Source: Leptolyngbyaceae cyanobacterium JSC-12 (GTDB lineage Bacteria; Cyanobacteriota; Cyanobacteriia; Leptolyngbyales; Leptolyngbyaceae). From it: DNA of 64,000 nt. The notes under the pieces are model-generated. The model ran no database searches and was not told where the DNA came from. It saw nothing but the letters and a program-made list of their open reading frames with translations. Of the stretch, positions 4,552-18,505 are shown one piece after another. Numbering within the stretch: position 1 is the stretch's first letter; every line of letters begins with the position of its first letter. The DNA lies in NCBI GenBank assembly GCA_000309945.1, contig CM001633.1:828723-892722 (forward strand). Direction: 5' to 3'. The translations under genes and the position numbers were made by a program.

Positions 4552-5397
4552 ATGAAGAGTTCCGTCTTACCATCAGCTCTGCTGTCTTGTACTGTTTTCT
4601 CCGGTTTAACTGCGCCTCTAGCAATTCTTGGTCCCAATTCAATCAACATTGAATTTCAACGGGAGAATATTTTTGCCGGTCGCCTTAAAGACATTGCAAC
4701 TCCCTATCTTGGGATTGCTGGTTTGATGAGTTTGGGTGCTGGTGCTGTTACGTTGTCCGTTGCTGAATGGCGGCGTTCTGCCCGTAAGTCCGTTCGCGTT
4801 GAATCACAACTGGCTGAACTTCAAAAGGAGTTGAAGGAAAAAGCCGTCCAAATTGATGAGTTACGCCTGTCAGAGTCATACTTGGCTACAAGTGGATTGA
4901 AGTCCTTCCTGGAACCAGAGGCAAAACCGCCTACTCCTAGTCAGGAAAAGCCTGTTCCAGCTTTTCATTCCTTAGCACAGCCACCCCTTAAACACAGTTC
5001 ACATATCTCAAATCAAGAGCAGCCTACTCCAAAGCCACATCCTACCATCCAGCAACAACCTCCTAAAAGAAGTCTGCCTGTTGAACAAACACTGCAAGCC
5101 CCATCTTTTCGAGGGGTGGTTGAAACTACAGCCGTTGAGATCCCTAAGTCCCGTTTAGCGATTGAGCGCGGACATGAACCCGCTGAAAGCCCTACGGAAG
5201 TGATATTATCACGAGTGAATCAACTGCAACATCAGCTTAAGCAGATGCAGGCTCACATTGAAGCGTTACAAAATTCATTGCACACTTCAACCCAGCCTGC
5301 TGAACCAGCCAATTTTCATAATTCGGAAATTGCGCGTTTACATCAACGGCTGCAACTGCTGGAGCTAGATTGGATGCGTCATCAAACTGCCTCCTAA
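4552..5397 (+). CDS. membrane-anchored coiled-coil protein of unknown function
   Basis: I do not recognise a family. The 281-residue protein has a hydrophobic N-terminus (about residues 5-28) and a second hydrophobic segment (about 50-72, PYLGIAGLMSLGAGAVTLSV). A basic stop-transfer stretch and a charged helix of about 45 residues predicted to form a coiled coil follow. A Pro/Gln-rich linker occupies about residues 120-190. A second coiled-coil helix (about 218-278, heptad-like VNQLQHQLKQMQAHIEALQ) closes the protein. This layout suits an envelope scaffold or cell-morphology factor, but nothing specific can be claimed. It stands alone, convergent with the lipoprotein gene. Confidence 0.7.
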   Translation: MKSSVLPSALLSCTVFSGLTAPLAILGPNSINIEFQRENIFAGRLKDIATPYLGIAGLMSLGAGAVTLSVAEWRRSARKSVRVESQLAELQKELKEKAVQIDELRLSESYLATSGLKSFLEPEAKPPTPSQEKPVPAFHSLAQPPLKHSSHISNQEQPTPKPHPTIQQQPPKRSLPVEQTLQAPSFRGVVETTAVEIPKSRLAIERGHEPAESPTEVILSRVNQLQHQLKQMQAHIEALQNSLHTSTQPAEPANFHNSEIARLHQRLQLLELDWMRHQTAS

Positions 5398-5680: not shown

Positions 5681-6469
5681 TTAGCGGAAACGTGATTCAG
5701 AAGAAAGCGGTGCATCCACTTGCTTTTCTTTCGGTGGTACTCCAACAGACACCTTAGCGCGCGTCGTGTTCGCTGTTGAGCGATTTCTCCAACTATCATT
5801 CTGGTCAAGCATTGTGACTGCGGGGGGAGTCGTTTTACCAGAAGGCAAACTCACGGGTAACGTTTGACTCGCCTGCAAGTAAGGTTGGCCATTTTCGGTA
5901 AACCGCAACAGCGGACTTTGTAAGTCTCGCTGCTGAACTTGCTGATTCACGCTGGTGGGTTGGTTCTCTGGCTCAAAGGTGGCTGTAAACACCACTTGCC
6001 CAGATGATTTGAATGGCAATCCTAAGCTTGTTTGGTGCTGTTGCCAGTTCTCCTGATATCGTCCATCAGAAGCAACTTGCCAAAGCGTTAGAGTGGTTTG
6101 CCATTGACCTTGATTCACTTCGGCAATTTCACGATCCAAAATGGCATAGTTGGCATCACTGGGTCGAAGGGGGGTAGAATCGGTTAGGGGTTGCAGATAC
6201 CGGATTCCTGAGATTACGATACGACTGTGATCCGGCAGATTTGTTGTTCCCGATGCCACGTATACTCCTGGTCGTCCAGATGGTTTGATAGTCAGGGAAA
6301 GATCTACCGAGGTTGATTGAGACTGGGTGCAGGCTGCTACCAGCCCTAACAGAAGAGTAAAGCCAGGAAGGGTAAGTCCAGTCAAGGATACAGTCTTTTT
6401 TGAGTATGAATAGGTTCGAGATGTCAATCGAGGCATTGGCATGATCGCAGTCTTGAGTAGCAGCTTCAT
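5681..6469 (-). CDS. predicted lipoprotein of unknown function
   Basis: The 262-residue product carries a hydrophobic segment ending in the lipobox-like LVAAC, with Cys47 counted from the ATG at 6469. Internal Met10 or Met12 would give a more normal signal-peptide length, so the true start may be slightly downstream. The mature part reads as a beta-rich domain (SLTIKPSGRPGVYVASGTTNLPD) followed by a disordered, Gln/Pro-rich tail. No enzyme motif is visible. It is divergent from the cellulose operon and shares a 178-bp intergenic region with it, so joint regulation is possible. Confidence 0.65.
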   Translation of the reverse strand: MKLLLKTAIMPMPRLTSRTYSYSKKTVSLTGLTLPGFTLLLGLVAACTQSQSTSVDLSLTIKPSGRPGVYVASGTTNLPDHSRIVISGIRYLQPLTDSTPLRPSDANYAILDREIAEVNQGQWQTTLTLWQVASDGRYQENWQQHQTSLGLPFKSSGQVVFTATFEPENQPTSVNQQVQQRDLQSPLLRFTENGQPYLQASQTLPVSLPSGKTTPPAVTMLDQNDSWRNRSTANTTRAKVSVGVPPKEKQVDAPLSSESRFR

Positions 6470-6647
6470 CGTTTCAACATTGGTGAATCTTGAGGTTTAT
6501 CAGGATCAATAATCAATCAACAATTGGATTACTGATTCCTTTCAGTAGCGAACACTTCACTTTTTTACCATTTAAATCTTGCTCCATTTCATATCTTCAT
6601 AAACTCCTAAAATTGTTCAAATCTAAGTCTGGGAGATCTTTTAAATT

Positions 6648-8891
6648 ATGCCTAGATCATCTCTTGGCTTGTTCCTACGTGGTTTGTCGATAGCAAACTC
6701 GGTCGCAAATCAGCACTTAGTTGTCGCAGCGTTTACTTTGTGGCTATTTGGATGCATGGTAGCCCCAGTCATAGCAACTGCAACAGAAGGGAAAGAAGCC
6801 AGTTCAGAAGAGCACCCCTTGGCGATCGCTCAGATATCTGAGCCACAGCCCCCTTTATTACCCCAGGCAACTTCCACAAATGACGCTCCAGCCTCTGAGA
6901 AAAATGAGCTTCCCACATTAGGCGATCTGATTGCGCAAACATTACAGTCTTCATCTCCATCGTCATCCAACGAGGGAACTGTGGCTGAAGCCTCCAGTGA
7001 TTCAACACTTCACCTCGCTCAACTCACATCCCCTCTTCCTGCCCAATTACCCGTTCCTTACCCCCCTTCATCAGCTAAAGGGAAAACTCCACCGCCACCC
7101 CCCACTAATCTTGTGGATGGCACAAATCCAGGACAGCCGTCTCAACCCACCAGTGTTTCACCTCCGGGCTATCTCCCCTATGGCATGGTTCTGGTGCCCA
7201 TGCATGTTTATGGCGGAACACCCGTCGGGTTTCCAGCAGGCGCAACCCTTCCATTAGGTTCATCCCCACCTAAGTTAGCACCCCTGCCCTATCCGGTCAT
7301 GCCTTATGGAACTGCACCCCTGCCAACGGGCTATTCCTATGGGGCAGTACCTGGAACCCCGATAATTTTCGCTCCCCAAGGGATGCCTGCTTATCCAGCA
7401 CATATGGCTCCTGCTGGTGCTCCCTTGCCAGCCTTGCCTCGCCCAATGGGGTATGCTGTCTATCCGGGTAACTATCCATTGGGTAACTATCCATCGGGTA
7501 ACTATCCATCAGGAATGATGTTGCCGCCCATTCCTTACTCCTATGGCATCAGTCTGCCGTCTAATACCTTACCGGCAGCGCCATCTCCCCACAGCGCGTC
7601 AACTCCTGGCATGGCCCTGCCGCCTCCTGCCTATCCTTATGGCATGGTTCTGATTCCACCTGGGGCTTACCCAACTGGACTACAACCTAGCGTCTATCCC
7701 ATCGGAGTGCCACCCACAACACAAATACTTCCAACTGGAGTCATGCCTTTTCCGGCGTACCCAGTCCCTTCTCCTGAAGCACAATTTCCTCAGGCGCAAC
7801 CATTGCCAGTTCAATCTCCACAAGGGCAGCCATTACTCCCACTTCCTTCAACTCCAACACCAGGAACAACTTCAACAAATAGCAAACCACTGATTCGCTC
7901 AACTGCCCTGAATCAGCCAGAACTTAAGTTTCAAGGCGCTTACATCTACCAGGGAAGTGAAGGATCGGGGCGGGCACGAGTCACCGGAACGTTACCATTG
8001 ACGCCGCGGGTGTTGGTAGGAGGAACGTTGGACTTTGTTGATGGTCGGGCGTTTACTGATTCTGAGAATCAAGGGATTAACTTGAATGAACTGTATGTGG
8101 CAACGTCCATCCCCGATTTGCCGAATCTGCGGTTTGTGGTAGGGCAGTTGGATTTGACTTCCTATTTTGACCGCAACAGTTTTGCCAAAGATGGTGCCAG
8201 TATGTTCTTCAACCCAGTGTTCCAGACCAACCCAGCACTGGCAGCAACAGGGATTGGTTCCCGGCAGGCAGCGTTAGTAAACTGGAGCATTACGGACAAT
8301 GCCGAAGCCAAAGCCGCAATCTTTTCTTCATCCCGTGAGTTGAATGACTTTAGTGTGGATGGGTTTGCGGGAGAGTTGGGCATTCGCTTTGGCAATACGA
8401 TTGTGCGGGGCACCTACGCTACCAATCGCGATGGTGGACGCCGAGATGGGTTCCGAGAGATTTTCCAGGTTGATCGCGGCAATGGACGTACTGGACTGCT
8501 GCGAGACGATCGCGAAGAAGCCTTTGGGATTAATGCCGAAACCTATTTCCCAGACATCAAAATGGGCATTTTTGGGCGCTATGGGCATTACTACAATCGG
8601 GGCATCAACCGCACAGCAAATACCTATAGTTTCGGGGTGACTTTCCTGGATTTATTGACTAAAAACGATCGCCTGGGCATCGCTTATGGACGAGAACTAT
8701 CCAATGAAAGCTTGCGACGACGGGCAGGCGATCGCAAGCCAGATGTTTTTGAAGTGTTTTATGACTTTGCCTTATTGCCTAACTTACGGTTGGGATTTTC
8801 ATTCCAGGCGGCTGATAATTTTTCAGAAACCATCCTGGGAATTCGAGTTAAAACTGATTTTGACTTAATTGCGCCTAGACAACCGCGATAA
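6648..8891 (+). CDS. outer-membrane beta-barrel with a Pro/Tyr/Gly-rich periplasmic or surface domain, cellulose operon
   Basis: This 747-residue protein has an N-terminal hydrophobic segment (about residues 20-48). An acidic/Pro-rich stretch follows, then about 250 residues rich in Pro, Tyr and Gly with repeated PYGMVL-like words. The last ~330 residues alternate polar and hydrophobic positions with repeated aromatic strand ends (NTYSFGVTFLDLL, NLRLGFSFQAADNF), the look of an outer-membrane beta-barrel. It is the first gene of the operon encoding a TPR protein, GH8 enzyme, BcsB and BcsA. It could therefore be the export pore that in proteobacteria is the C-terminal barrel of BcsC. That role is inferred from position and fold only. 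Confidence 0.7.
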   Translation: MPRSSLGLFLRGLSIANSVANQHLVVAAFTLWLFGCMVAPVIATATEGKEASSEEHPLAIAQISEPQPPLLPQATSTNDAPASEKNELPTLGDLIAQTLQSSSPSSSNEGTVAEASSDSTLHLAQLTSPLPAQLPVPYPPSSAKGKTPPPPPTNLVDGTNPGQPSQPTSVSPPGYLPYGMVLVPMHVYGGTPVGFPAGATLPLGSSPPKLAPLPYPVMPYGTAPLPTGYSYGAVPGTPIIFAPQGMPAYPAHMAPAGAPLPALPRPMGYAVYPGNYPLGNYPSGNYPSGMMLPPIPYSYGISLPSNTLPAAPSPHSASTPGMALPPPAYPYGMVLIPPGAYPTGLQPSVYPIGVPPTTQILPTGVMPFPAYPVPSPEAQFPQAQPLPVQSPQGQPLLPLPSTPTPGTTSTNSKPLIRSTALNQPELKFQGAYIYQGSEGSGRARVTGTLPLTPRVLVGGTLDFVDGRAFTDSENQGINLNELYVATSIPDLPNLRFVVGQLDLTSYFDRNSFAKDGASMFFNPVFQTNPALAATGIGSRQAALVNWSITDNAEAKAAIFSSSRELNDFSVDGFAGELGIRFGNTIVRGTYATNRDGGRRDGFREIFQVDRGNGRTGLLRDDREEAFGINAETYFPDIKMGIFGRYGHYYNRGINRTANTYSFGVTFLDLLTKNDRLGIAYGRELSNESLRRRAGDRKPDVFEVFYDFALLPNLRLGFSFQAADNFSETILGIRVKTDFDLIAPRQPR
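7466..7510 (+). repeat. three tandem 15-bp units inside the barrel gene
   Basis: The unit GGGTAACTATCCAT plus one base occurs three times in a row. It encodes GNYPL/GNYPS pentapeptides in the Pro/Tyr/Gly-rich domain. Copies 2 and 3 are identical, and copy 1 differs at the last base. This indicates recent expansion of the low-complexity domain by slippage. Confidence 0.85.
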
Positions 8892-8997
8892 GGAAATAGA
8901 TTATTAGAAATTTATTTACTTTTTTCCAGTAAACCATCGACGCAGTAGGAATAAAGGAGATGAATATTACAGTGGTGCTAGTGGGGAGGAATGAATC

Positions 8998-11301
8998 GTG
9001 AAATCAAGCACCAACCATTGGATGAGTGCGACCTATCTGGGGCTGCTTTTGATGAGTGGTCCAGCAATTCCATTGCTAACTGTCTCTGTTGCTCAAGCAC
9101 AGGCAGTTCCAGTTCTAGTTCAGCAGGGATATGCTCTTTTAAATCAGGGACGGGTGAACGAAGCGATCGCAGTTTTTCAGCAGGGAACCCGACAGTTTCC
9201 AAGATCGGTAGAAGCGTGGTTAGGGTTGGCGATCGCTTACCGTCGCGCTGGACAGGATGCCAATGCCTTTCAGGCGTATGAGCAGGTATTGCGGCTAGAA
9301 CCCAATAATCGCCTAGCACTCAGCAGTATTGGCTTACTGGGAAGCTATCGCCCGGAGTGGCAAATGCGCGGGATTGAAGCGTTGACTACCCTGCTGAGAT
9401 TGAACCCAGGTGATGTGGAAGCCCGGACTCAACGAGCGTTGCTCTATCGTTATCAGGGGCGGTTTCCAGAAGCTCTGACAGATTATCAGATTTTGCTTCA
9501 GGGCAATCCAGCACCAGCAGTGCTCCTGGGCGCAGCAGAAGCCTATAGCTACAACGGCAACTATCCACAAGCGCTGGAATTGTACAATCGCTATCTCCGG
9601 ACGGGCGGCAAAATTACGGGCTATGCCGCGATCGCCTACGCCCGCACGCTGCGCAACATGGGCAATCCGGGAGGAGCCGTACAGCTTTTGGAATCTCAAT
9701 TAACCAACAAAGCGGATGATCTAAATACTCAAATTCGAGTGGAATTAGCCCAGGCGTATGTGGTAATTCAGCAACCCGCTAAGGCATTCGCAACAATTGA
9801 GCCATTGCGAGGTCGTGCAGATGCCTCTTTACCCTTAGCTCGTGCATTTAACGAACTTGGACAAAAGCTGAATAATGCCATGTTACTGGCTGAATCGGCG
9901 CGATTGTATCGCCAGGTATTAAGCCAAACCCCCAATCCGTCACTATCTCTCCTGCGAGAAGTGGCAGATGTGCTGAGTGGGCAGGCAACTGAGCGAGAGG
10001 CAGCCTTGCAACTATATCGCCAGTTAGTGCAATTGCAACCCAGCGATCGTGGCATTCAGCTTAAACGGTTGGCACTGGAACGACAATTGGGTTATATTTC
10101 GCGATCGCAGCTTCGGGAAGGGGTACGGGCAATTGTACAGCCTTTACCCAGTGATTCAACTCAACAACAGGCGATCGCCCAGGGGTTGGTACGAATTGAG
10201 CCGGAAATTGAATTTTTGCCTGTTTATCAAGCGCTGCTACAAAACCCCACCATCAACGAACCGTTTCTCAATTTTCGAGCGGCGCAAATGCTACTCCAGC
10301 GCAATGATTTAGCAGGTGCCAGAAATGCTCTCGCGGCTTATACCTCAACCCCTCAAGCTGTGGGTGATCTCGCACCGCAACTACTGGCAGCGGAAATTGA
10401 ACGGCGCGAAGGCAACCTCGATGCTGCCGCACAACGTTACGAAGCTATCATCGCGACCAATCCCGCCAATTACGACATTTTGGTAGGAGCAGTTCAGGGT
10501 CTGGCTACGATTCGCGCTACGCAGGGACGCACAGGAGAATCACTATCTGTGCTGGATCAACTGATTGCCCGCTATCCCCAAGACGTGCGGTTACAAATGG
10601 CGCGGGCGGCGATCGCTTATCAGGCACAGGTAATCACTCAAGCGCAGGCAGAAGCAGTACTGAATGCCTGGTTGGGTAGCCGTCCTCCCACGGATACGCC
10701 ATCCGAACTGTATAGCCTGGTGGTAGCCTTGCCTGCTAGTTCCCAGCGGGAACCACTCTATCAACTGCTAGCAGAGGCAGACCCCAACAACATTCCAGTG
10801 CAAGTACGGCTGATTCAGGTGATTGCCCTGCGCGATCGCAACGAAGCCAAAGCACAGGTCATACAGCTTGTGGGACGGAGCCAGATGATGGGCATTTCCG
10901 CAGTGGATGCTTACCTGCTGCAAGGCGAACTGACGCTGGCAATCCAAGACTTGGGATTAGCAAGAGCTTCGTTTGAGTCGGCATTGGCATTGCAACCGCT
11001 GAATGCCGATGCCTTGATTGGTTTAGGGAATGTCTCCTTCCAGGAACGCCATTTTGATAAAGCTAAAGACTTTTTCAATCGGGCACTTGCTATCAAGCCC
11101 AGAGATACGGGAATCCAGCGATCGCTGATTGAGGTCAAAGTAGCTCAAGATTACCCCCTGGAAGCTATCTCCCAAATTGAAGCTCTGCAACGACAGCAAG
11201 CAGGTGGATTCCTAGCACCAGGGTTAGCCTTACGCCGCCAAAAAATTGAAGAAGACTTCCTCAAACGTCGCGGGTTTCAACCCCCGTGGGAGCGTTACTA
11301 A
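8998..11301 (+). CDS. periplasmic TPR-repeat protein of the cellulose operon (BcsC TPR half)
   Basis: I use the GTG start at 8998, which has GGGGAGGA about eight bases upstream. The 767-residue product has a signal peptide ending near AQAQA (about residue 36). Many TPR-like helical pairs follow, for example ALLNQGRVNEAIAVFQQGTRQFP and ADALIGLGNVSFQERHFDKA. In BcsC the TPR domain spans the periplasm and joins a C-terminal barrel; here the protein ends after the TPRs with no barrel. The preceding gene encodes a barrel. It is co-directional with the endoglucanase gene, 9 bp away. A role as scaffold for glucan export is inferred. Confidence 0.8.
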   Translation: MKSSTNHWMSATYLGLLLMSGPAIPLLTVSVAQAQAVPVLVQQGYALLNQGRVNEAIAVFQQGTRQFPRSVEAWLGLAIAYRRAGQDANAFQAYEQVLRLEPNNRLALSSIGLLGSYRPEWQMRGIEALTTLLRLNPGDVEARTQRALLYRYQGRFPEALTDYQILLQGNPAPAVLLGAAEAYSYNGNYPQALELYNRYLRTGGKITGYAAIAYARTLRNMGNPGGAVQLLESQLTNKADDLNTQIRVELAQAYVVIQQPAKAFATIEPLRGRADASLPLARAFNELGQKLNNAMLLAESARLYRQVLSQTPNPSLSLLREVADVLSGQATEREAALQLYRQLVQLQPSDRGIQLKRLALERQLGYISRSQLREGVRAIVQPLPSDSTQQQAIAQGLVRIEPEIEFLPVYQALLQNPTINEPFLNFRAAQMLLQRNDLAGARNALAAYTSTPQAVGDLAPQLLAAEIERREGNLDAAAQRYEAIIATNPANYDILVGAVQGLATIRATQGRTGESLSVLDQLIARYPQDVRLQMARAAIAYQAQVITQAQAEAVLNAWLGSRPPTDTPSELYSLVVALPASSQREPLYQLLAEADPNNIPVQVRLIQVIALRDRNEAKAQVIQLVGRSQMMGISAVDAYLLQGELTLAIQDLGLARASFESALALQPLNADALIGLGNVSFQERHFDKAKDFFNRALAIKPRDTGIQRSLIEVKVAQDYPLEAISQIEALQRQQAGGFLAPGLALRRQKIEEDFLKRRGFQPPWERY

Positions 11302-11310
11302 GTTAGGACT

Positions 11311-12630
11311 ATGCCCTTTCATCATGCAACTCTTATGACTAAACTTTATTGGCGTTTACCCAGTTTACTTATAGCCCTGATGCCCCTTGTAGGACTGGAT
11401 AGTTGTCGGGCAATGTCCGAAAAGCCGGAGTCCTCTCCATCTGCCCAACCGATTACGTCTGTTTCTCCGACTCCACAGCCACCACTGGTCGCGCCAACCA
11501 CCACAATCGCAGCAGCCACTCGCTTAACAACTGCCCCCGCCTCAGACCAGGTATTACTGCAACAAAGTTGGGCAGCCTATCGCCAGCGCTTTATCCAGAG
11601 TGATGGGCGTGTGATCGATTGGGAAGCAAATGAACGGTCCACCTCAGAAGGGCAGGCTTATGCCATGTTGCGAGCCGTGATGATGGGCGATCGCGACACC
11701 TTTGACCGCACCCTACAATGGGCAGAAAACAACCTGAAACGTCAGCGCGACGGCAAACCAATCGATTCCCTGTGGGCATGGAAGTGGGGCAAAAATCAGC
11801 AGGGACAATGGATGATTGTCGATCCTAACTTCGCCAGCGATGCCGATGTGGATGCAATCACCGCGCTGATTTTGGCATCTCGCCGCTGGCAGCATCGCCC
11901 TTATCTGGAACTAGCACAAATTAAACTGCAAGATTTGTGGAACCTTTCCACAGTCGCGGATTATCGAACAGATGCTCAGCAGCGGCGCTACCTGTTGCCA
12001 GGTCCAGCCACATCCTTCCAAAAAAAGACAATCATTCAACTCAACCCCTCTTACTTTTCGCCTGCATCATTTCGTTTATTCGCCCAGGTAGACAAATCTC
12101 GCAATTGGATCAGCCTGGTACACAGCAGTTATCAGGTGTTGCAACAAGCAAAGACTCTTTCTCAAACAGGATTACCCAATGATTGGATTCTATTAGATCT
12201 AACAACAGGCATACCGCAAGCCCTACTCACACCCAACCCTGGCACCAGTGAATATGGATTTGATGCCTACCGTGTGTGGTGGCGACTCGCCATTGATGCT
12301 GACTGGTTTGGGGAACCATTAGCTCGATCGCTCCTGCAACAACAACTCAAACCTATCCAACAACGGTGGCGATCGCAGCAACAAATTCCTGCCCGCATTG
12401 ACCTGCATGGCGAACCACTCGTCACTTACGAAGCCACATCTCAGTACGGCATGTTGTACCACGCCTTTCGATTAATTGATCCAGCAATAGCTCAACAAAT
12501 TCGGCAAAAACAACTTGATCCCAGATATCGGGATGGCTTCTGGGACAACAACTCTGCCTACTACACGCAAAATCTTGTCTGGTTCGGACTTGCGCCCTCC
12601 GCTCCTCTGGCTCCGCTGTTAAAACCCTAA
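11311..12630 (+). CDS. bcsZ: GH8 endo-beta-1,4-glucanase of the cellulose operon
   Basis: The 439-residue product starts with a hydrophobic leader ending near LDSC, possibly a lipobox (ATG at 11311, alternative ATG at 11335), then a Ser/Pro/Thr linker. The catalytic domain shows the family-8 features: the acid Glu113 in STSEGQAYAMLR and the signature ASDADVDAITALILASRRW near residue 175. The enzyme hydrolyses internal beta-1,4-glucosidic bonds and trims nascent cellulose in BcsZ-containing systems. It sits between the TPR gene and bcsB with short spacers (9 and 34 bp), so co-transcription is likely. The unusual Asp at -2 makes lipidation uncertain. Confidence 0.88.
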   Translation: MPFHHATLMTKLYWRLPSLLIALMPLVGLDSCRAMSEKPESSPSAQPITSVSPTPQPPLVAPTTTIAAATRLTTAPASDQVLLQQSWAAYRQRFIQSDGRVIDWEANERSTSEGQAYAMLRAVMMGDRDTFDRTLQWAENNLKRQRDGKPIDSLWAWKWGKNQQGQWMIVDPNFASDADVDAITALILASRRWQHRPYLELAQIKLQDLWNLSTVADYRTDAQQRRYLLPGPATSFQKKTIIQLNPSYFSPASFRLFAQVDKSRNWISLVHSSYQVLQQAKTLSQTGLPNDWILLDLTTGIPQALLTPNPGTSEYGFDAYRVWWRLAIDADWFGEPLARSLLQQQLKPIQQRWRSQQQIPARIDLHGEPLVTYEATSQYGMLYHAFRLIDPAIAQQIRQKQLDPRYRDGFWDNNSAYYTQNLVWFGLAPSAPLAPLLKP

Positions 12631-12664
12631 GCTCACACCTGTCATCTCCAACCAAACTCGACCT

Positions 12665-15175
12665 ATGAAAGGCAAGCATCGCTCTCAAACTGTTCAGCAT
12701 CCAGTGTCTCATCGTCAGCCTAGTCGCAAAATGCGGTTGGCAGCAGCAGCGATCGCCGGACTGTTATTTCCCAGCTATGTAGGGCTTTCCCTCAGTCCCC
12801 TGACTGCGATCGTCCAAGCACAAAGTAATTCCAGTATAGAAACCCAGGAAAATCAACTGATTCGCCAATTTGCGCCACCACCCTCCCCACCCCCACCTCC
12901 TGTTTATCGTCCTGCCCCTGCTCCGGCACCCGCGCCAGAACCTGAGTTTGTGCCAGAGTCTACTCCAGTTCCAGCCTCTGCTCCGGCTCCAGCCCCTGCC
13001 CCTAAAGCCCCCACCAGCAGCCCACCAGAAACTGCCATTCGGGGAACGAATAGTACCTATGTGTTGGAGTTTAATCGCAGCCCAATTGTGGGCAATAGTT
13101 TACGATTACGAGGAACTTATGCCGAAGGCCGACTAGCATTCACCCGTCCCCGCAACTGGAACTTGAAGACCGTAAAAGCCATTATTCGCTATCAGCACTC
13201 GCCCGCATTGGTAGCAAACCGCTCCAATCTAACCGTGCGGGTAAACGGTACCAGCGTCGGTAGTGTGCCATTAAATCGCAAAAACTCCAAAATTGGCGAA
13301 TTGGCAGTGAATATTCCTGCCAGCCTGATCCAGAACTACAACGAACTAACCGTAGTGGCGCAGCAGAACAATGTGCCAGAAGGTTGTTCTGATCCAGGCG
13401 ATGCCACCCTGTGGACAGAAGTCTTACCCGACTCCAAACTGGTTTTTGGCTTCCAACCCAAAGCCATCCCGCTAGATTTCAGCCGCTATCCCTACCCGTT
13501 TTTTGATGATTTGGGATTGGATGCGGCGGAAGTTGCCTATCTCTTGCCCAAAAGTTTGAATCCATCCTGGTTAACGGCTGCTGCCCGGTTTCAGGCAGGC
13601 ATGGGCAGATTGGCAGATTTTCGCCCCATGAATACCCAGGTAATAAAGTCGCTGAGTCAATTACGAACCAATCAACAACTGGTAGTGATTGGCACGCCCC
13701 AAGAGCAACCAGCAATTAAGTCGCTCAAACTGCCTTACAAAATTGCAAACAATCAATGGGTAGACGGCAGTAAAAGTCCCCTGCCTGATGATGTGGGCTT
13801 AGTGATGCTGACCACAGTTCAGGATGGTCGAGTGCCCGTGCTGGTGATCACTGGAAACGGAGCCGAAGGGATGGCAAAAGCGGTGCAATTTTTGCTGCAA
13901 CCAGGACAACGCCAGATGGGAACTGGAGCAGCAGTGCTAGTTGACCAGGTACCTGATGTGCCTTCTCCACCGTTGCGCCAGTGGGCGCGTTACATTCCCG
14001 AAGCCAACAACTTCCAGCTAAAGGATCTAAAAAGCCCGGATAACAAGCCCTGGCAGGATGTGACCCTGCGCGGTTCTTATGCGCCGCCAATGGAATTTGA
14101 TTTTCGGGCATTGCCGGACGATCGCCTGCAGCGGGGCAGTTCCATGACACTGTTCTACAGTCACAGTCCGCAGGTGAATCCGCGCCTCTCTACTGTGGAA
14201 GTGCGACTGGATGGAGTCCCGATTGGTGGTAAGCGATTAACCGCTGAAGATGGTACGACTCGCGACTCGTTGAATATCAACCTGCCCGAAGATCTGGTCA
14301 CATCCAACTCTAAGATACAAGTGGCATTTAACCTGGTGCCAAAAGAAATCGGGGAATGTGGCAAGATGACTGACCAGCAACTGTGGGGAAAGATTCACAG
14401 CGACACTAAGTTTGACCTGAATCGGCAACAGTCGGTCAAACTACCAGACTTGAAACTCTTACAGGCAGGATATCCATTTGCGGCACCGCAAGATTTGTCA
14501 AATACTGTGATTGCTTTGCCCGATTCACCCTCTAATGCCGAGTTGTTGACCTTGCTGCAAGTCAGTGAACGGCTAGGACGCTTGAGCCAATCGGAGAGCA
14601 TTAAGCTGCAGGTTTATAACGGTGGCAATTTGCCAGAAGAAACCCGCAGTCGAGCAAATTTGATTGGTATCGGTACCCGCGATCGCTTCCCATTCCCGGA
14701 AATATTCAACAGGGGCGGCTTCCAACTGGATAAGTTTTTCACTCGTCGTACGGAGCAAAGCCAGATTCAAACCTTACCCGATGCAGGAGGAGTGGTCAAA
14801 CAGGTGATTTCTCCCTGGAATGGCGATCGCGTAGTGCTAGCACTCACAGCTCAAAACAACAGCGGGCTAGATAAAATCCGTGCCTTGTTTAAGAAAAATG
14901 CTCTATTTTTTCAACTTAAAAATGACACAGTTGTTGTGAACACTACTGACAAAAATCCGTCTGAATACGATGTGGATGCTTATAGCCTCAGCTTTTTCCA
15001 GGAGGCAAATCGGCAAACTCGTATTGATAACGCCTCGCCTCTTAGCAAAACCTCTCGCTTCCTGCAAGACAACTGGTACTTACTGCCCACAGGCATTGTG
15101 ATTTCGGCATTGGTGATGTACGGCGTCGCTCAGTTGTATCTCAAGCGCGTAGCTGAACCGAAAGGAGAAAAATAA
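12665..15175 (+). CDS. bcsB: cellulose synthase regulatory/periplasmic subunit BcsB
   Basis: The 836-residue product has a signal segment near residues 20-50 and a striking Pro/Ala linker (about residues 70-120). The BcsB ectodomain that follows contains paired carbohydrate-binding-like and flavodoxin-like modules (YVLEFNRSPIVGNSLRLRG, then FSHSPQ-like repeats in the second half). A single C-terminal transmembrane helix (about 808-828) is followed by a short basic tail. BcsB guides the growing glucan through the periplasm and docks on BcsA. The stop overlaps the bcsA start by one base (TAATG), a sign of translational coupling. Confidence 0.88.
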   Translation: MKGKHRSQTVQHPVSHRQPSRKMRLAAAAIAGLLFPSYVGLSLSPLTAIVQAQSNSSIETQENQLIRQFAPPPSPPPPPVYRPAPAPAPAPEPEFVPESTPVPASAPAPAPAPKAPTSSPPETAIRGTNSTYVLEFNRSPIVGNSLRLRGTYAEGRLAFTRPRNWNLKTVKAIIRYQHSPALVANRSNLTVRVNGTSVGSVPLNRKNSKIGELAVNIPASLIQNYNELTVVAQQNNVPEGCSDPGDATLWTEVLPDSKLVFGFQPKAIPLDFSRYPYPFFDDLGLDAAEVAYLLPKSLNPSWLTAAARFQAGMGRLADFRPMNTQVIKSLSQLRTNQQLVVIGTPQEQPAIKSLKLPYKIANNQWVDGSKSPLPDDVGLVMLTTVQDGRVPVLVITGNGAEGMAKAVQFLLQPGQRQMGTGAAVLVDQVPDVPSPPLRQWARYIPEANNFQLKDLKSPDNKPWQDVTLRGSYAPPMEFDFRALPDDRLQRGSSMTLFYSHSPQVNPRLSTVEVRLDGVPIGGKRLTAEDGTTRDSLNINLPEDLVTSNSKIQVAFNLVPKEIGECGKMTDQQLWGKIHSDTKFDLNRQQSVKLPDLKLLQAGYPFAAPQDLSNTVIALPDSPSNAELLTLLQVSERLGRLSQSESIKLQVYNGGNLPEETRSRANLIGIGTRDRFPFPEIFNRGGFQLDKFFTRRTEQSQIQTLPDAGGVVKQVISPWNGDRVVLALTAQNNSGLDKIRALFKKNALFFQLKNDTVVVNTTDKNPSEYDVDAYSLSFFQEANRQTRIDNASPLSKTSRFLQDNWYLLPTGIVISALVMYGVAQLYLKRVAEPKGEK

Positions 15176-17733
15176 TGGCAAACCCTTCAATGCAATCTCC
15201 CCAAGTCAGTAAAAGTCAACAAGTAATCAACTTGCTGGTGCAGGCAATTCCGCGCTTTTTCGATCGCAAATTGGCTCGGCTGCAGCGTCGTCAATTGTTA
15301 CTCATCATTATTCTGGTGGGGCTACTCTCCGTGCCATTGATTATTACACCGCTGGAAATTTGGCAGCAGGGAGTTGTGGCATTGTCACTGGTCGTGATCA
15401 GTTGGGTGGTGTTACGGGTAGAGCAGAACCAAAACGATACCATCACCAGCGAGTATCTGCACCTGTTTATGGTGTGGCTCAGCATTATCACAACTCTGCG
15501 CTACTTCTATTACCGCACCGTCTATACTCTCAACTTTGATGGGTGGATTAATGGTTTCTTCTGCACCTTGCTGTATGGGGCAGAATTATATGCTGTGATC
15601 GGGTTACTGCTGGCTTATTTCCAAACACTCAAACTGAAAGAACGTCAACCCGTGCCCCTGACTGTGCGCCCCCAAGAACAGTGGTTTACCGTGGATGTCT
15701 ACATCCCCACTTACAACGAAGATGTGGAGATTGTTCGCAAGACTGCCCTTGCCGCCATGGCGTTAGACTATCCAGCCAACAAGAAACAAGTGTATGTACT
15801 GGATGATGGACGCAAATTTCCAGAGCGCAGGCAGGAACTACAACGCATGTGTAATGAAGTGGGCTGCATCATGCTAACGCGAGACAACAACGACCACGCC
15901 AAGGCAGGCAATATTAACACAGCAATGCGCCGGACTCATGGCGATCTAGTGATGATTCTAGACTGTGATCACATTCCTACTCGCGACTTTTTGCAAAACA
16001 CTGTGGGATTCTTTTATGACTCAAACGTGACGCTAGTACAAACTCCTCACTGGTTCTACAATCCAGATCCATTTGAGCGGAACTTGATGACCAGAGGACG
16101 AGTCCCAATCAGCAATGAGTTGTTCTATAAAGTAGTGCAGAAGGGAAATGATTTCTGGAATGCCGCATTTTTCTGCGGGTCAGCCGCGGTGATTCGGAAA
16201 GATTACGTGCTGCAAATTGGCGGTATTGCCGTGGAAACGGTGACTGAGGATTGTCATACATCCTTCCGGCTGCACTCCCTCGGGTATGACTCGGTGTATT
16301 ACGACAAGATTATGATTGCGGGGCTGGCTCCTGAAAAGTTTTCAGCATTGGTAGGGCAACAGGTGCGCTGGGCACGGGGCATGGCACAAATCCTGCGACT
16401 GGAAAACCCCTTGTTTAATCGCAGGCTCAACCTTTCAATGCCGCAACGCTTATGTTATTTCTCAGCCATGTTTGGTTTCTTTTATGGGTTTCCACGTTTG
16501 ATCTACGCGATCGCACCGACCCTATTCCTCCTATTTGCGATTAACCCGATTCGTGGGTTGGGCATGGAAACATTAGTGTATGCGTTACCACACATTATTT
16601 TGTCCATGAATACCAACTTCATCGTGTCAAAACGAGTGCGATTCTCTTTCTGGAATGAAGTTTATGAATTTGCACTATCGTTTTACACAGCAATTGTAAC
16701 TTCCGTTGCACTGTTCAATCCTCGCATGGGTTCATTCAACGTTACCGATAAGGGATTGTCCGTGACCAAGCGCAGTTTTGATTGGCGCTCTGCTCGCCCG
16801 CTGTTAGTAGTTGCCATCATGGTACTGCTCTCTTTAATCGCGGTGCCATTCTGGCTGGCATTGAGTCCATCTGATTATGAAGCAGTATTAGTGAACGCCA
16901 TGTGGAGCGGCTTTAATTTGATTTTGATTATGGGGGCTTTGTTGGTGGCATTTGAGCAACCGCAACTGCGCCGTGCTCACCGCCTCAATCGCAAATTGCC
17001 TGCCATCATCTACAGTCAAGATCAAACCTGGAGAGGTTCTACGGTGGATGTGAGCGAAACGGGTGCTCGCATTATTTTAGATACCTGGCCGAATATTCCT
17101 GATGTAGTCGAGATAGAACTCGTGGGAGACTATGGTGCACGAGCATTTTTAACTGCTCAAATCGTGCGAGGTCTGCCCCTCAATGAGTCTCAAACTCTTT
17201 TGATTGCGGATTTTCTGGAACCGACTCGTGAACAAATGGATGCATTAAGTTTGGTGCTCTATTCCGATGTAAGGGAGTGGTATTCTCAACATCGAGACAA
17301 TGTGGATGACCCGCTGGAATCCTTGCGGTTTATTGCCACCAGTATCAGTCGTTCCTTTGATGAACTACAACCTGCAAAAGGGGTGAAAGTCCGAAAGAAA
17401 ACCCAAGTTCCTGTACAACTCTTTTGGGAAGGACATTTCTATCCCGCCCAAGTGGTGGAAGCAGGGGTGCAAAGTATGCAACTCGCGATCGCTCCAGAGA
17501 TCCTTCTCAATTGGGATGTGCTGCAACGGAAAAAGCCAATCGTAGGACTGGAAGTTACAACAGAACGGAATAATGCTGGAAACAATCGGTTACTGGCATT
17601 TGTGAATGAAGTAGAACTGCGATCGCTGCAATCTACAAATACAGATGAAAACTTGATTTTGATTGAGTTGCGATTGCCAGAACGTCTAGAAAACCGCCAA
17701 AAAATAGCTGTTCAGAAAATTCTAGCCGCTTAA
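15175..17733 (+). CDS. bcsA: cellulose synthase catalytic subunit with PilZ domain
   Basis: The ATG overlaps the bcsB stop and is preceded by AAAGGAG. The 852-residue protein has membrane helices before and after a GT2 domain. The processive-synthase motifs are visible: VLDDG near residue 209, DCD near 262, FFCGSAAV near 330, TED near 356 and QQVRW near 394. A PilZ domain follows with RRAHR (RxxxR, near 598) and DVSETG (DxSxxG, near 624), the c-di-GMP-binding signature. Polymerisation of UDP-glucose into beta-1,4-glucan activated by c-di-GMP is therefore expected. The last ~130 residues contain a second, PilZ-like stretch without the full motifs. Confidence 0.93.
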   Translation: MANPSMQSPQVSKSQQVINLLVQAIPRFFDRKLARLQRRQLLLIIILVGLLSVPLIITPLEIWQQGVVALSLVVISWVVLRVEQNQNDTITSEYLHLFMVWLSIITTLRYFYYRTVYTLNFDGWINGFFCTLLYGAELYAVIGLLLAYFQTLKLKERQPVPLTVRPQEQWFTVDVYIPTYNEDVEIVRKTALAAMALDYPANKKQVYVLDDGRKFPERRQELQRMCNEVGCIMLTRDNNDHAKAGNINTAMRRTHGDLVMILDCDHIPTRDFLQNTVGFFYDSNVTLVQTPHWFYNPDPFERNLMTRGRVPISNELFYKVVQKGNDFWNAAFFCGSAAVIRKDYVLQIGGIAVETVTEDCHTSFRLHSLGYDSVYYDKIMIAGLAPEKFSALVGQQVRWARGMAQILRLENPLFNRRLNLSMPQRLCYFSAMFGFFYGFPRLIYAIAPTLFLLFAINPIRGLGMETLVYALPHIILSMNTNFIVSKRVRFSFWNEVYEFALSFYTAIVTSVALFNPRMGSFNVTDKGLSVTKRSFDWRSARPLLVVAIMVLLSLIAVPFWLALSPSDYEAVLVNAMWSGFNLILIMGALLVAFEQPQLRRAHRLNRKLPAIIYSQDQTWRGSTVDVSETGARIILDTWPNIPDVVEIELVGDYGARAFLTAQIVRGLPLNESQTLLIADFLEPTREQMDALSLVLYSDVREWYSQHRDNVDDPLESLRFIATSISRSFDELQPAKGVKVRKKTQVPVQLFWEGHFYPAQVVEAGVQSMQLAIAPEILLNWDVLQRKKPIVGLEVTTERNNAGNNRLLAFVNEVELRSLQSTNTDENLILIELRLPERLENRQKIAVQKILAA

Positions 17734-17740
17734 TATAAAG

Positions 17741-17768
17741 CCTCCGATTTCTTGGAAAAAATTGGAGG
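17741..17768 (+). terminator. hairpin after bcsA
   Basis: The arms CCTCCGATTTCTT and AAAAAATTGGAGG pair over 13 positions with a G-U-type mismatch and a 2-nt turn, 7 bp after the bcsA stop. It has no downstream U-run, so termination may rely on the stem alone. Confidence 0.5.
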
Positions 17769-18187
17769 GCTGCAAACCCTTATTGCCAAACAAAAACCTT
17801 CTGATTTTGGTTTGTATTCACCAGACTCCTCTCCCATCCACAGCATTGGTACGCCCGTTGCTGTCATTTGCTTTAGGTCTGCCACATGACGATACTTCCC
17901 ACGTGCATGGGGAGCATCTTCATCGAGATAATATAGCTTTGGTCAGAACGCTTAAGACAAGGATAATGGTAGAAAATCAATACCAGATAGGCGTTCTGAC
18001 TCGCCTCCGCCACGTTACACATGGCTACGGCTATAAATAGCTTTCCATCTCAGCGATTGCCCGTCGTGACAGATGTTGCAGCGATTTTGGCTCTATCACA
18101 AGAAACAATGTGGATCTTTTTCACCATCTTTAAATAGCTAGACTACAATTTTTCCACATATTTCAACCCCAGGAAGGGCGCTTTCTT
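17769..18187. other. intergenic region between bcsA and hup
   Basis: No gene with support was found in these ~420 bp. A perfect 10-bp inverted repeat (GTCAGAACGC at 17943-17952, GCGTTCTGAC at 17991-18000) brackets about 38 bp. On the minus strand a stretch of about 65 sense codons (17734 to roughly 17940) is free of stops but has no good start. The hup promoter is probably near 18120-18150, where TACAAT could be the -10. Confidence 0.45.
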
Positions 18188-18505
18188 ATGAACAAGAGTG
18201 AACTGGTTGATGCGATCGCCTCAAGGGCGTCCATCACAAAGAAAGATGCTGATAATGTACTAACTGCCGTAGTGGATGCCATTATGGAAGCGGTTTCATC
18301 GGGCGAAAAGGTGACTCTGGTTGGGTTTGGAACGTTTGAAGCACGGCAACGCCAGGCTCGTGAAGGGCGGAATCCCAGCACCGGCAAACCTATTCAAATT
18401 CCAGCGACAACGGTTCCTGCTTTTTCAGCAGGGAAGCTGTTTAAGGAAAAAGTTGCACCTGCGAAAGAGGAAGCCCCGAAGGCGAAAGCAAAAGGCAAAA
18501 AGTAA
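18188..18505 (+). CDS. hup: HU-family nucleoid protein
   Basis: This 105-residue protein has the full HU fold: MNKSELVDAIA at the start, the hinge GFGTFEARQRQAREGRNP and the beta-arm with GKPIQIPATTVPAFSAGK. The last ~18 residues are a Lys/Ala-rich tail beyond the canonical ~90 residues, which probably adds non-specific DNA contact. An AGGAAGG lies 12-17 bases before the ATG. HU bends and compacts DNA as a homodimer in bacteria with one copy. It is monocistronic, with structured inverted repeats downstream. Confidence 0.95.
   Translation: MNKSELVDAIASRASITKKDADNVLTAVVDAIMEAVSSGEKVTLVGFGTFEARQRQAREGRNPSTGKPIQIPATTVPAFSAGKLFKEKVAPAKEEAPKAKAKGKK

Follow-up and report, generated by a model that had tools for sequence, protein, structure and literature searches.

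Introduction

In Escherichia coli, cellulose leaves the cell through BcsC, in which a solenoid of 19 tetratricopeptide repeats (TPRs) is thought to guide the chain into a pore of 16 strands; the last BcsB is bound by repeat 1, and loss of BcsZ activity strongly lowers export (PMC11379886). The synthase-dependent alginate system of Pseudomonas has a separate TPR scaffold, AlgK, and an outer-membrane barrel, AlgE (PMC9734138), and the Pel system combines a barrel and TPRs with a dedicated lipoprotein, PelC (PMC12141448). Here we describe a cellulose operon in a 64,000-nucleotide stretch of the genome of Leptolyngbyaceae cyanobacterium JSC-12 (contig CM001633.1, positions 828,723 to 892,722), which as a whole is called the window. 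Five genes lie head to tail on the plus strand at 6648-17733; the first two encode a predicted barrel protein and a TPR protein, and the other three BcsZ, BcsB and BcsA. Sequence comparison, predicted structures and analogy lead us to put the probability at roughly 0.7 that these proteins form a cellulose exporter that replaces BcsC, works in the manner of AlgK/AlgE and has a porin of the OprB type as its channel. Many cyanobacteria appear to export cellulose through a channel of the sugar-porin type and a separate helical scaffold, and not through a single BcsC.

The passage of cellulose over the cyanobacterial outer membrane has been called poorly defined (PMC12430437). In the cited part of one phylum-wide survey, BcsC_C was found in no strain analysed and BcsB and GH8 in very few, and its authors considered that cyanobacterial export proteins are perhaps unlike those of other bacteria (PMC4594306). 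In contrast, another study records BcsC-type barrels in five strains and OprB-type porins in nearly every strain, OprB not being tied to cellulose in the sections cited (PMC4365693). The XcsAB-TolC model of cyanobacterial cellulose export is experimentally unvalidated and concerns type IV operons, described as being without BcsB (PMC12430437). Divided genes are on record as well: pelB has undergone fission in some species (PMC7112194), and an acidobacterial bcsC in two fragments was considered a pseudogene (PMC9693552). In the accessible portions of openly licensed PMC papers we found no description of a barrel with a separate TPR protein in such an operon, and a prior description is possible.

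The locus shares with AlgK/AlgE the separate scaffold and barrel, but AlgE is an 18-strand barrel (PMC9601211) of a family, PF13372, that was not found in the window's genome, and AlgK is itself a lipoprotein, whereas here the TPR protein has no lipobox and the lipoprotein is separate. With BcsC of E. coli it shares a TPR solenoid and a barrel predicted to have 16 strands, in a bcs system that also includes BcsZ, BcsB and BcsA; it differs in having two polypeptides and a barrel that is related to OprB and has no BcsC_C match. The barrel resembles the OprB porins (PF04966) in fold, strand number, L3 position and sequence over 230 columns, and departs from them in its Pro-rich linker, in the absence of an SLH match, in its tie to a TPR protein and bcs genes, and in that export is proposed for it and not uptake. 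Barrel, TPRs and a dedicated lipoprotein recall PelB/PelC, although PelB fuses TPR and barrel and the lipoprotein shows no PelC kinship in a Pfam scan. Phylum and product are those of the XcsA-XcsB-TolC model, which has an HlyD-type protein for BcsB and a TolC-type channel encoded elsewhere (PMC12430437). In the EpsY/EpsX translocon a barrel also works with a separate periplasmic partner, but that is an OPX protein, the pathway is Wzx/Wzy and the barrel is AlgE-like with 18 strands (PMC9601211). If our reading is true, this is a third route for cellulose over the outer membrane, besides BcsC and the proposed TolC route.

The operon and its proteins

In the window, the module comprises the following features:

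6648..8891, plus strand: barrel protein, 747 aa, ATG start, with signal-peptide-like N-terminus (by eye), Pro-rich linker and barrel domain
7893..8888, plus strand: barrel domain, 332 aa, predicted 16 strands, OprB-related (AlphaFold2)
8154..8258, plus strand: loop between strands 5 and 6, domain residues 88-122, at the place of porin L3; the domain's most conserved part
8998..11301, plus strand: TPR solenoid, 767 aa, GTG start, signal-peptide-like N-terminus (by eye), no lipobox (TPR families)
11266..11298, plus strand: conserved C-terminal tail of the TPR protein, RRGFQPPWERY, candidate docking motif (motif comparison)
11311..12630, plus strand: bcsZ, GH8 endoglucanase (PF01270, E 5.5e-44; NF008305 (BcsZ), E 1.2e-51, under the NF008305 cut-off)
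12665..15175, plus strand: bcsB (PF03170, E 5e-104)
15175..17733, plus strand: bcsA, cellulose synthase with PilZ domain (TIGR03030, 712.8 bits, cut-off 699.1; PilZ, E 3.8e-11)
5681..6469, minus strand: lipoprotein, 262 aa, divergent gene upstream of the barrel gene, invariant lipobox Cys, no known family (homologue alignment)

An earlier note on this DNA had placed genes for a barrel-like and a TPR protein at the head of an operon with bcsZ, bcsB and bcsA, and scans of the window's proteins against Pfam and NCBIfam bear this out: both reading frames are where it had put them, and the families could be identified. The hallmark of the Bcs type, a BcsA synthase with PilZ together with BcsB in one operon, is present. 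The genome is a single contig of 5.53 Mb with one BcsB match.

As a whole, the barrel protein has no match in Pfam or NCBIfam at E 1 or better, it found nothing in a PDB sequence search, and its profile gave only ferritin matches there (E 1.1). The 19 members compared share one layout: a hydrophobic start that by eye resembles a signal peptide, then a low-complexity linker of widely differing length, Pro-rich for the most part, and at the C-terminus a domain of 310-335 residues. In the 75 named members that are complete, the domain is preceded by 148-590 residues (median 299), of which a median of 15% are Pro. From a 19-sequence alignment, AlphaFold2 folds the C-terminal 332 residues into 16 strands (mean pLDDT 85.1, pTM 0.81), so that the barrel suspected in the earlier note is indeed predicted, with a strand count that agrees with the BcsC barrel fold. 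The best conserved part is the loop between strands 5 and 6, with a mean of 3.95 bits against 2.84 in the other outer loops (99 sequences, 42.3 effective). We take porins to carry their L3 between the same two strands; L3 is the constriction loop in classical porins. Strand positions that face inward average 3.65 bits against 3.23 for outward ones; the facing was judged from hydrophobicity, whose contrast is small in several strands. The closest named relative, among the matches listed, belongs to a metagenome-assembled genome (MAG) of Leptolyngbyaceae with 93% identity.

The TPR protein is modelled as all-helical (pLDDT 87.1). Since the model resembles many sorts of helical solenoid, the protein cannot be classified by its fold. 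Against the BcsC model it scores 49.5 bits (cut-off 858), weaker than against several unrelated TPR families, and BcsC stands well down the list of its TPR matches in the PDB. At the end of the protein, RG[FYI][QR]PxW occurs within the last 40 residues in 93 of 93 TPR proteins, a count that includes the window and some duplicate places. An identity as AlgK-like lipoprotein was considered and rejected, as none of 96 homologues has the lipobox pattern in its first 70 residues.

Relationship of the barrel

The barrel is a divergent relative of the OprB carbohydrate porins, judging by sequence and predicted structure. PF04966 (OprB) is matched by 11 of 19 barrel domains at E 1 or better, the best at 3.5e-12, and four of four homologues selected by hand and scanned singly pass its cut-off of 22.9 bits (30.4-39.3 bits). 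At the same threshold neither BcsC_C (PF05420) nor the AlgE family (PF13372) matches any of the 19 domains, and the other Pfam matches are to two unrelated families, with one member each. When the barrel family was compared by hhalign with nine OprB porins of the window's genome, the probability was 96.0% (E 4.2e-9, 230 columns). The best structure match of the model in the PDB is also an OprB, 4gey of Pseudomonas putida, with a Foldseek E of 4.9e-13, and by VIA-align a Z of 27.4 and a root mean square deviation of 2.9 over 296 aligned residues. The runners-up by VIA-align are OprO and OprP entries (Z 23.8 and below), and the second OprB entry, 4gf4, has rank 13 (Z 21.6, 238 aligned). The barrels of BcsC, PgaA, AlgE and PelB are not among the best 50 Foldseek or VIA-align matches, from which we draw no conclusion.

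The earlier note had described the pair of genes as a BcsC split in two, and this is the part of it that is not supported. The barrel side points to OprB by Pfam, profile and structure, and the TPR side is no nearer to BcsC than to many other TPR proteins, although a similarity in TPRs says little. A split is probably the wrong history for these genes; to go by sequences and models, the replacement of BcsC by a recruited OprB-type porin fits better. Neither a BcsC-type (BcsC_C) nor an AlgE-type barrel was found in the window's genome, PgaA, PelB, TolC and HlyD types not having been searched genome-wide. In a sample of 386 genomes of the phylum BcsC_C matches eight, two of which pass the cut-off, and among the 16 genomes with a strong barrel match (E < 1e-80, which here also defines full-length) it occurs only in G338, under the cut-off and about 2.5 Mb from the operon.

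Distribution and gene order

In the same sample PF03170 (BcsB) matches 22 genomes. The match is full-length at 22 places in 17 genomes, and five further genomes have partial matches only. Strong barrel matches were found at 19 places in 16 genomes, and all 16 are among the 17 with full-length BcsB; the seventeenth, G343, is of another class and has neither a strong barrel match nor a lipoprotein match. Eight further genomes have weak barrel matches only (E 2.2e-6 to 9.4e-4); the one scanned, from G308, is an OprB porin with an SLH domain. Directly behind each of the 19 strong barrels lies a separate TPR gene. In 16 cases BcsB comes further along the same stretch, in two the contig stops first, and in one (contig 427 of G360) different genes come next.

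Gene order was also surveyed in 80 named loci, the best 80 of the 204 retrieved with the barrel profile, as the earlier note had proposed for other cyanobacteria. A separate TPR gene follows the barrel gene directly in 77, in three of these with its frame in two pieces, and a fused barrel-TPR form occurs in none. The order barrel, TPR, BcsB, BcsA is kept in 65, one of them with BcsB in two frames; 13 of the remaining 15 stop at a contig edge. Three loci go straight from TPR to BcsB without bcsZ. In 53 of the 77 the TPR gene begins inside the end of the barrel gene, with an overlap of 1 or 4 bp; the gap in the window is 106 bp. The idea that both are one frameshifted gene was dismissed on the separate arrangement in these 77 and on the signal-like start that each protein has of its own.

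Some loci show operons that have been disturbed. In L138 (9383-15624), a Nostoc MAG, the TPR start is in frame with BcsB and BcsA is in two pieces, and by its sequence this operon is decaying or misassembled. In L154 bcsB lies about 9 kb past the TPR gene, beyond inserted genes; this locus (13651-14208) and L113 (13750-14319) have a similar open reading frame of 185-189 aa behind the TPR gene. L133 has a reading frame of RRXRR-HNH endonuclease type between the barrel and TPR genes (11183-12544). In L206 (3695-4518, G286) short fragments of TPR, BcsZ, BcsB and lipoprotein genes succeed each other on one strand within about 820 bp, which from the sequence is a fossil of the operon.

The lipoprotein

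The gene upstream, which the earlier note had overlooked, belongs to the module as its sixth gene, to judge by sequence conservation and distribution. Every one of the 20 homologues aligned has the lipobox Cys. Of the 386 genomes, 18 have a match to the protein: each of the 16 with a strong barrel, where E is 2.9e-25 or lower, and two of other classes with weak matches (E 1.9e-7 and 7.2e-4). Among named loci with at least 1.1 kb of sequence upstream it adjoins the barrel gene in 66 of 73, and in L080 it stands directly behind bcsA on the same strand. Pfam and the PDB hold no believable relative: the 20 members gave only single-member matches in Pfam, the best at E 0.013 and none to a PelC model, a direct comparison with PelC not having been made.

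Separated copies and conservation

The barrel and TPR genes remain paired when the synthase genes are located apart from them. Allocoleopsis franciscana PCC 7113 has them as a unit of their own on its plasmid pMIC7113.02, with a 4-bp overlap and annotated as "hypothetical protein" and "tetratricopeptide repeat protein"; bcsB-bcsA is on the opposite strand, and the lipoprotein gene lies between both units. A gene for a WecB/TagA-type glycosyltransferase stands between bcsB and the lipoprotein gene, and there is no bcsZ match within this 26.6-kb stretch (L207, 1489-16299). G360 has one barrel-TPR pair, on contig 427, and one bcsB-bcsA pair on another contig. By tree distance its BcsB and BcsA are nearest to L080 (G215) and to L076, the second operon of G011; its barrel is nearest to L080, and its TPR protein has other neighbours.

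In most operon copies examined, the nearest neighbours agree across the trees of barrel, TPR, BcsB and BcsA (e.g. L071, L121, L162, L163 and L164). In the 72 loci that carry the complete set of five genes, with duplicate places counted, pairwise identity has a median of 68.0% for the barrel domain, 65.6% for BcsA, 58.5% for BcsZ and 55.3% for both TPR and BcsB, only the barrel being taken as a domain and the others at full length. Correlations between the identity matrices are 0.88-0.96, a level that common descent of the species would by itself also produce. That a barrel of the outer membrane is conserved to the same degree as the synthase suggests that its substrate and its partners are fixed.

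Discussion

The earlier note had also suggested a distinct export architecture, and this idea is well supported by the comparative evidence, as the two-protein barrel and TPR arrangement is conserved in bcsZBA operons and is unlike the HlyD/TolC model. In the mechanism that we propose, BcsA, probably activated by c-di-GMP via PilZ, would make the glucan and extrude it to the periplasm with BcsB. The barrel and TPR proteins would both be secreted, and the TPR protein would by analogy be a scaffold that spans the periplasm and links BcsB to the barrel. Towards the synthase, its N-terminal repeats probably contact BcsB, in the way that repeat 1 of BcsC does in E. coli; at its other end, the conserved RGxQPxW tail probably binds either the barrel protein itself or the Pro-rich linker. 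The chain would then flow outwards through the predicted 16-strand barrel, a recruited OprB-type porin, with the L3-like loop lining the pore. The lipoprotein, anchored beside the barrel, may serve the assembly or the cohesion of the complex, a role like that of PelC with PelB. BcsZ, absent from some operons, would trim chains that cannot be exported. On the evolutionary side we lean towards a conversion by cyanobacteria of an OprB-type uptake porin to a polymer channel, coupled to a free TPR scaffold and a new lipoprotein.

Several observations weigh against such an exporter. OprB porins are known for taking up sugars, and a glucan chain on the move may not fit through an L3 constriction. The barrel of the window itself reaches only 20.8 bits against the OprB cut-off of 22.9 in the genome scan and had no match when its domain was scanned singly. 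In the same genome ten further proteins match the OprB family above the cut-off, so that kinship with OprB alone says little about export. The second operon of G011 is TPR-BcsB-BcsA, and no barrel was found beside it or beside the second lipoprotein gene of that genome. In seven of the 73 named loci with room upstream, the lipoprotein gene is not next door. The barrel of L141 and the TPR protein of L078 differ in neighbours from the rest of their own operons, and the genome counts are not independent of phylogeny.

The barrel could instead be an ordinary OprB-type porin that imports glucose or the cello-oligosaccharides released by BcsZ, cellulose leaving the cell in another way. The kinship through Pfam, profile comparison and structure speaks for this, as does the L3-like loop at the constriction position. 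The two cyanobacterial OprB porins that were scanned, one of them the weak barrel match of G308, do however carry SLH, whereas the barrel protein of the window has no SLH match in the Pfam scan and the family mostly has a Pro-rich linker instead. Further, the barrel is tied to BcsB and TPR and is about as conserved as BcsA. It also remains in operons that lack bcsZ, which argues against a role limited to importing what BcsZ releases, the lack of bcsZ being established for the operons and not for the whole genomes. We regard an uptake porin as unlikely.

A true fission of an ancestral BcsC, with a barrel that has drifted beyond recognition, would account for the sizes, since a TPR protein of 767 aa and a barrel domain of 332 aa come close to the 1157 positions of the BcsC model, and for the 16 strands, which BcsC also has (PMC11379886). 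It is improbable when no barrel domain matches PF05420 and 11 match OprB, when the TPR protein scores better against several unrelated TPR families than against BcsC, and when no fused form is seen among the named loci. Finally, BcsAB cellulose might leave by a TolC-type channel, as in XcsAB-TolC, with barrel and TPR as accessories, and HlyD/TolC export has been proposed for other cyanobacteria (PMC12430437). But BcsB is present here, and the model, in itself unvalidated, is built on operons without it; nor does Pfam give an HlyD match for any of the five operon proteins (for the TPR protein, among the best 25 of 29 families), a scan that covered the operon and not TolC or HlyD genes in the rest of the genome. 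Of the explanations considered, this one seems to us very improbable.

An exporter built around a recruited porin would mean that porin-type barrels can be repurposed for polymer export, of which this is an apparent case, and it leaves a new lipoprotein family to place. Candidate export proteins can now be named for BcsB-type operons, e.g. in Calothrix sp. NIES-3974 and Allocoleopsis franciscana PCC 7113, and as such candidates are in culture-collection strains, the question is testable by single gene deletions.

Other observations

Scans of 6300-18300 for promoters (11 sites, shuffle mean 12.6) and terminators (13 sites, shuffle mean 12.4) gave nothing usable. At 4552-5397 of the window is a gene for a protein with what looks like a coiled coil, which keeps its place near the module in 51 of the 68 named loci that extend 4 kb upstream; it was left outside the module, to which this synteny is its link. 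The genome of the window has a second, weaker cellulose-synthase-like GT2 with PilZ, under the TIGR03030 cut-off (G000, C1:3090549-3092534; L201, L205), which is adjoined by a gene for a SIS-domain protein. A BcsB-like protein (about 650 aa) and a neighbour of about 765 aa are encoded side by side in three cyanobacterial genomes, each about 3 Mb in size (L083, 8013-12291; L084, 6562-10878; L085, 9068-13381). The larger protein of L083, the one scanned, is a GT2 synthase that carries an MshEN domain and does not match PilZ, and by its domains the pair is a possible MshEN-regulated glucan synthase with a BcsB-like partner.

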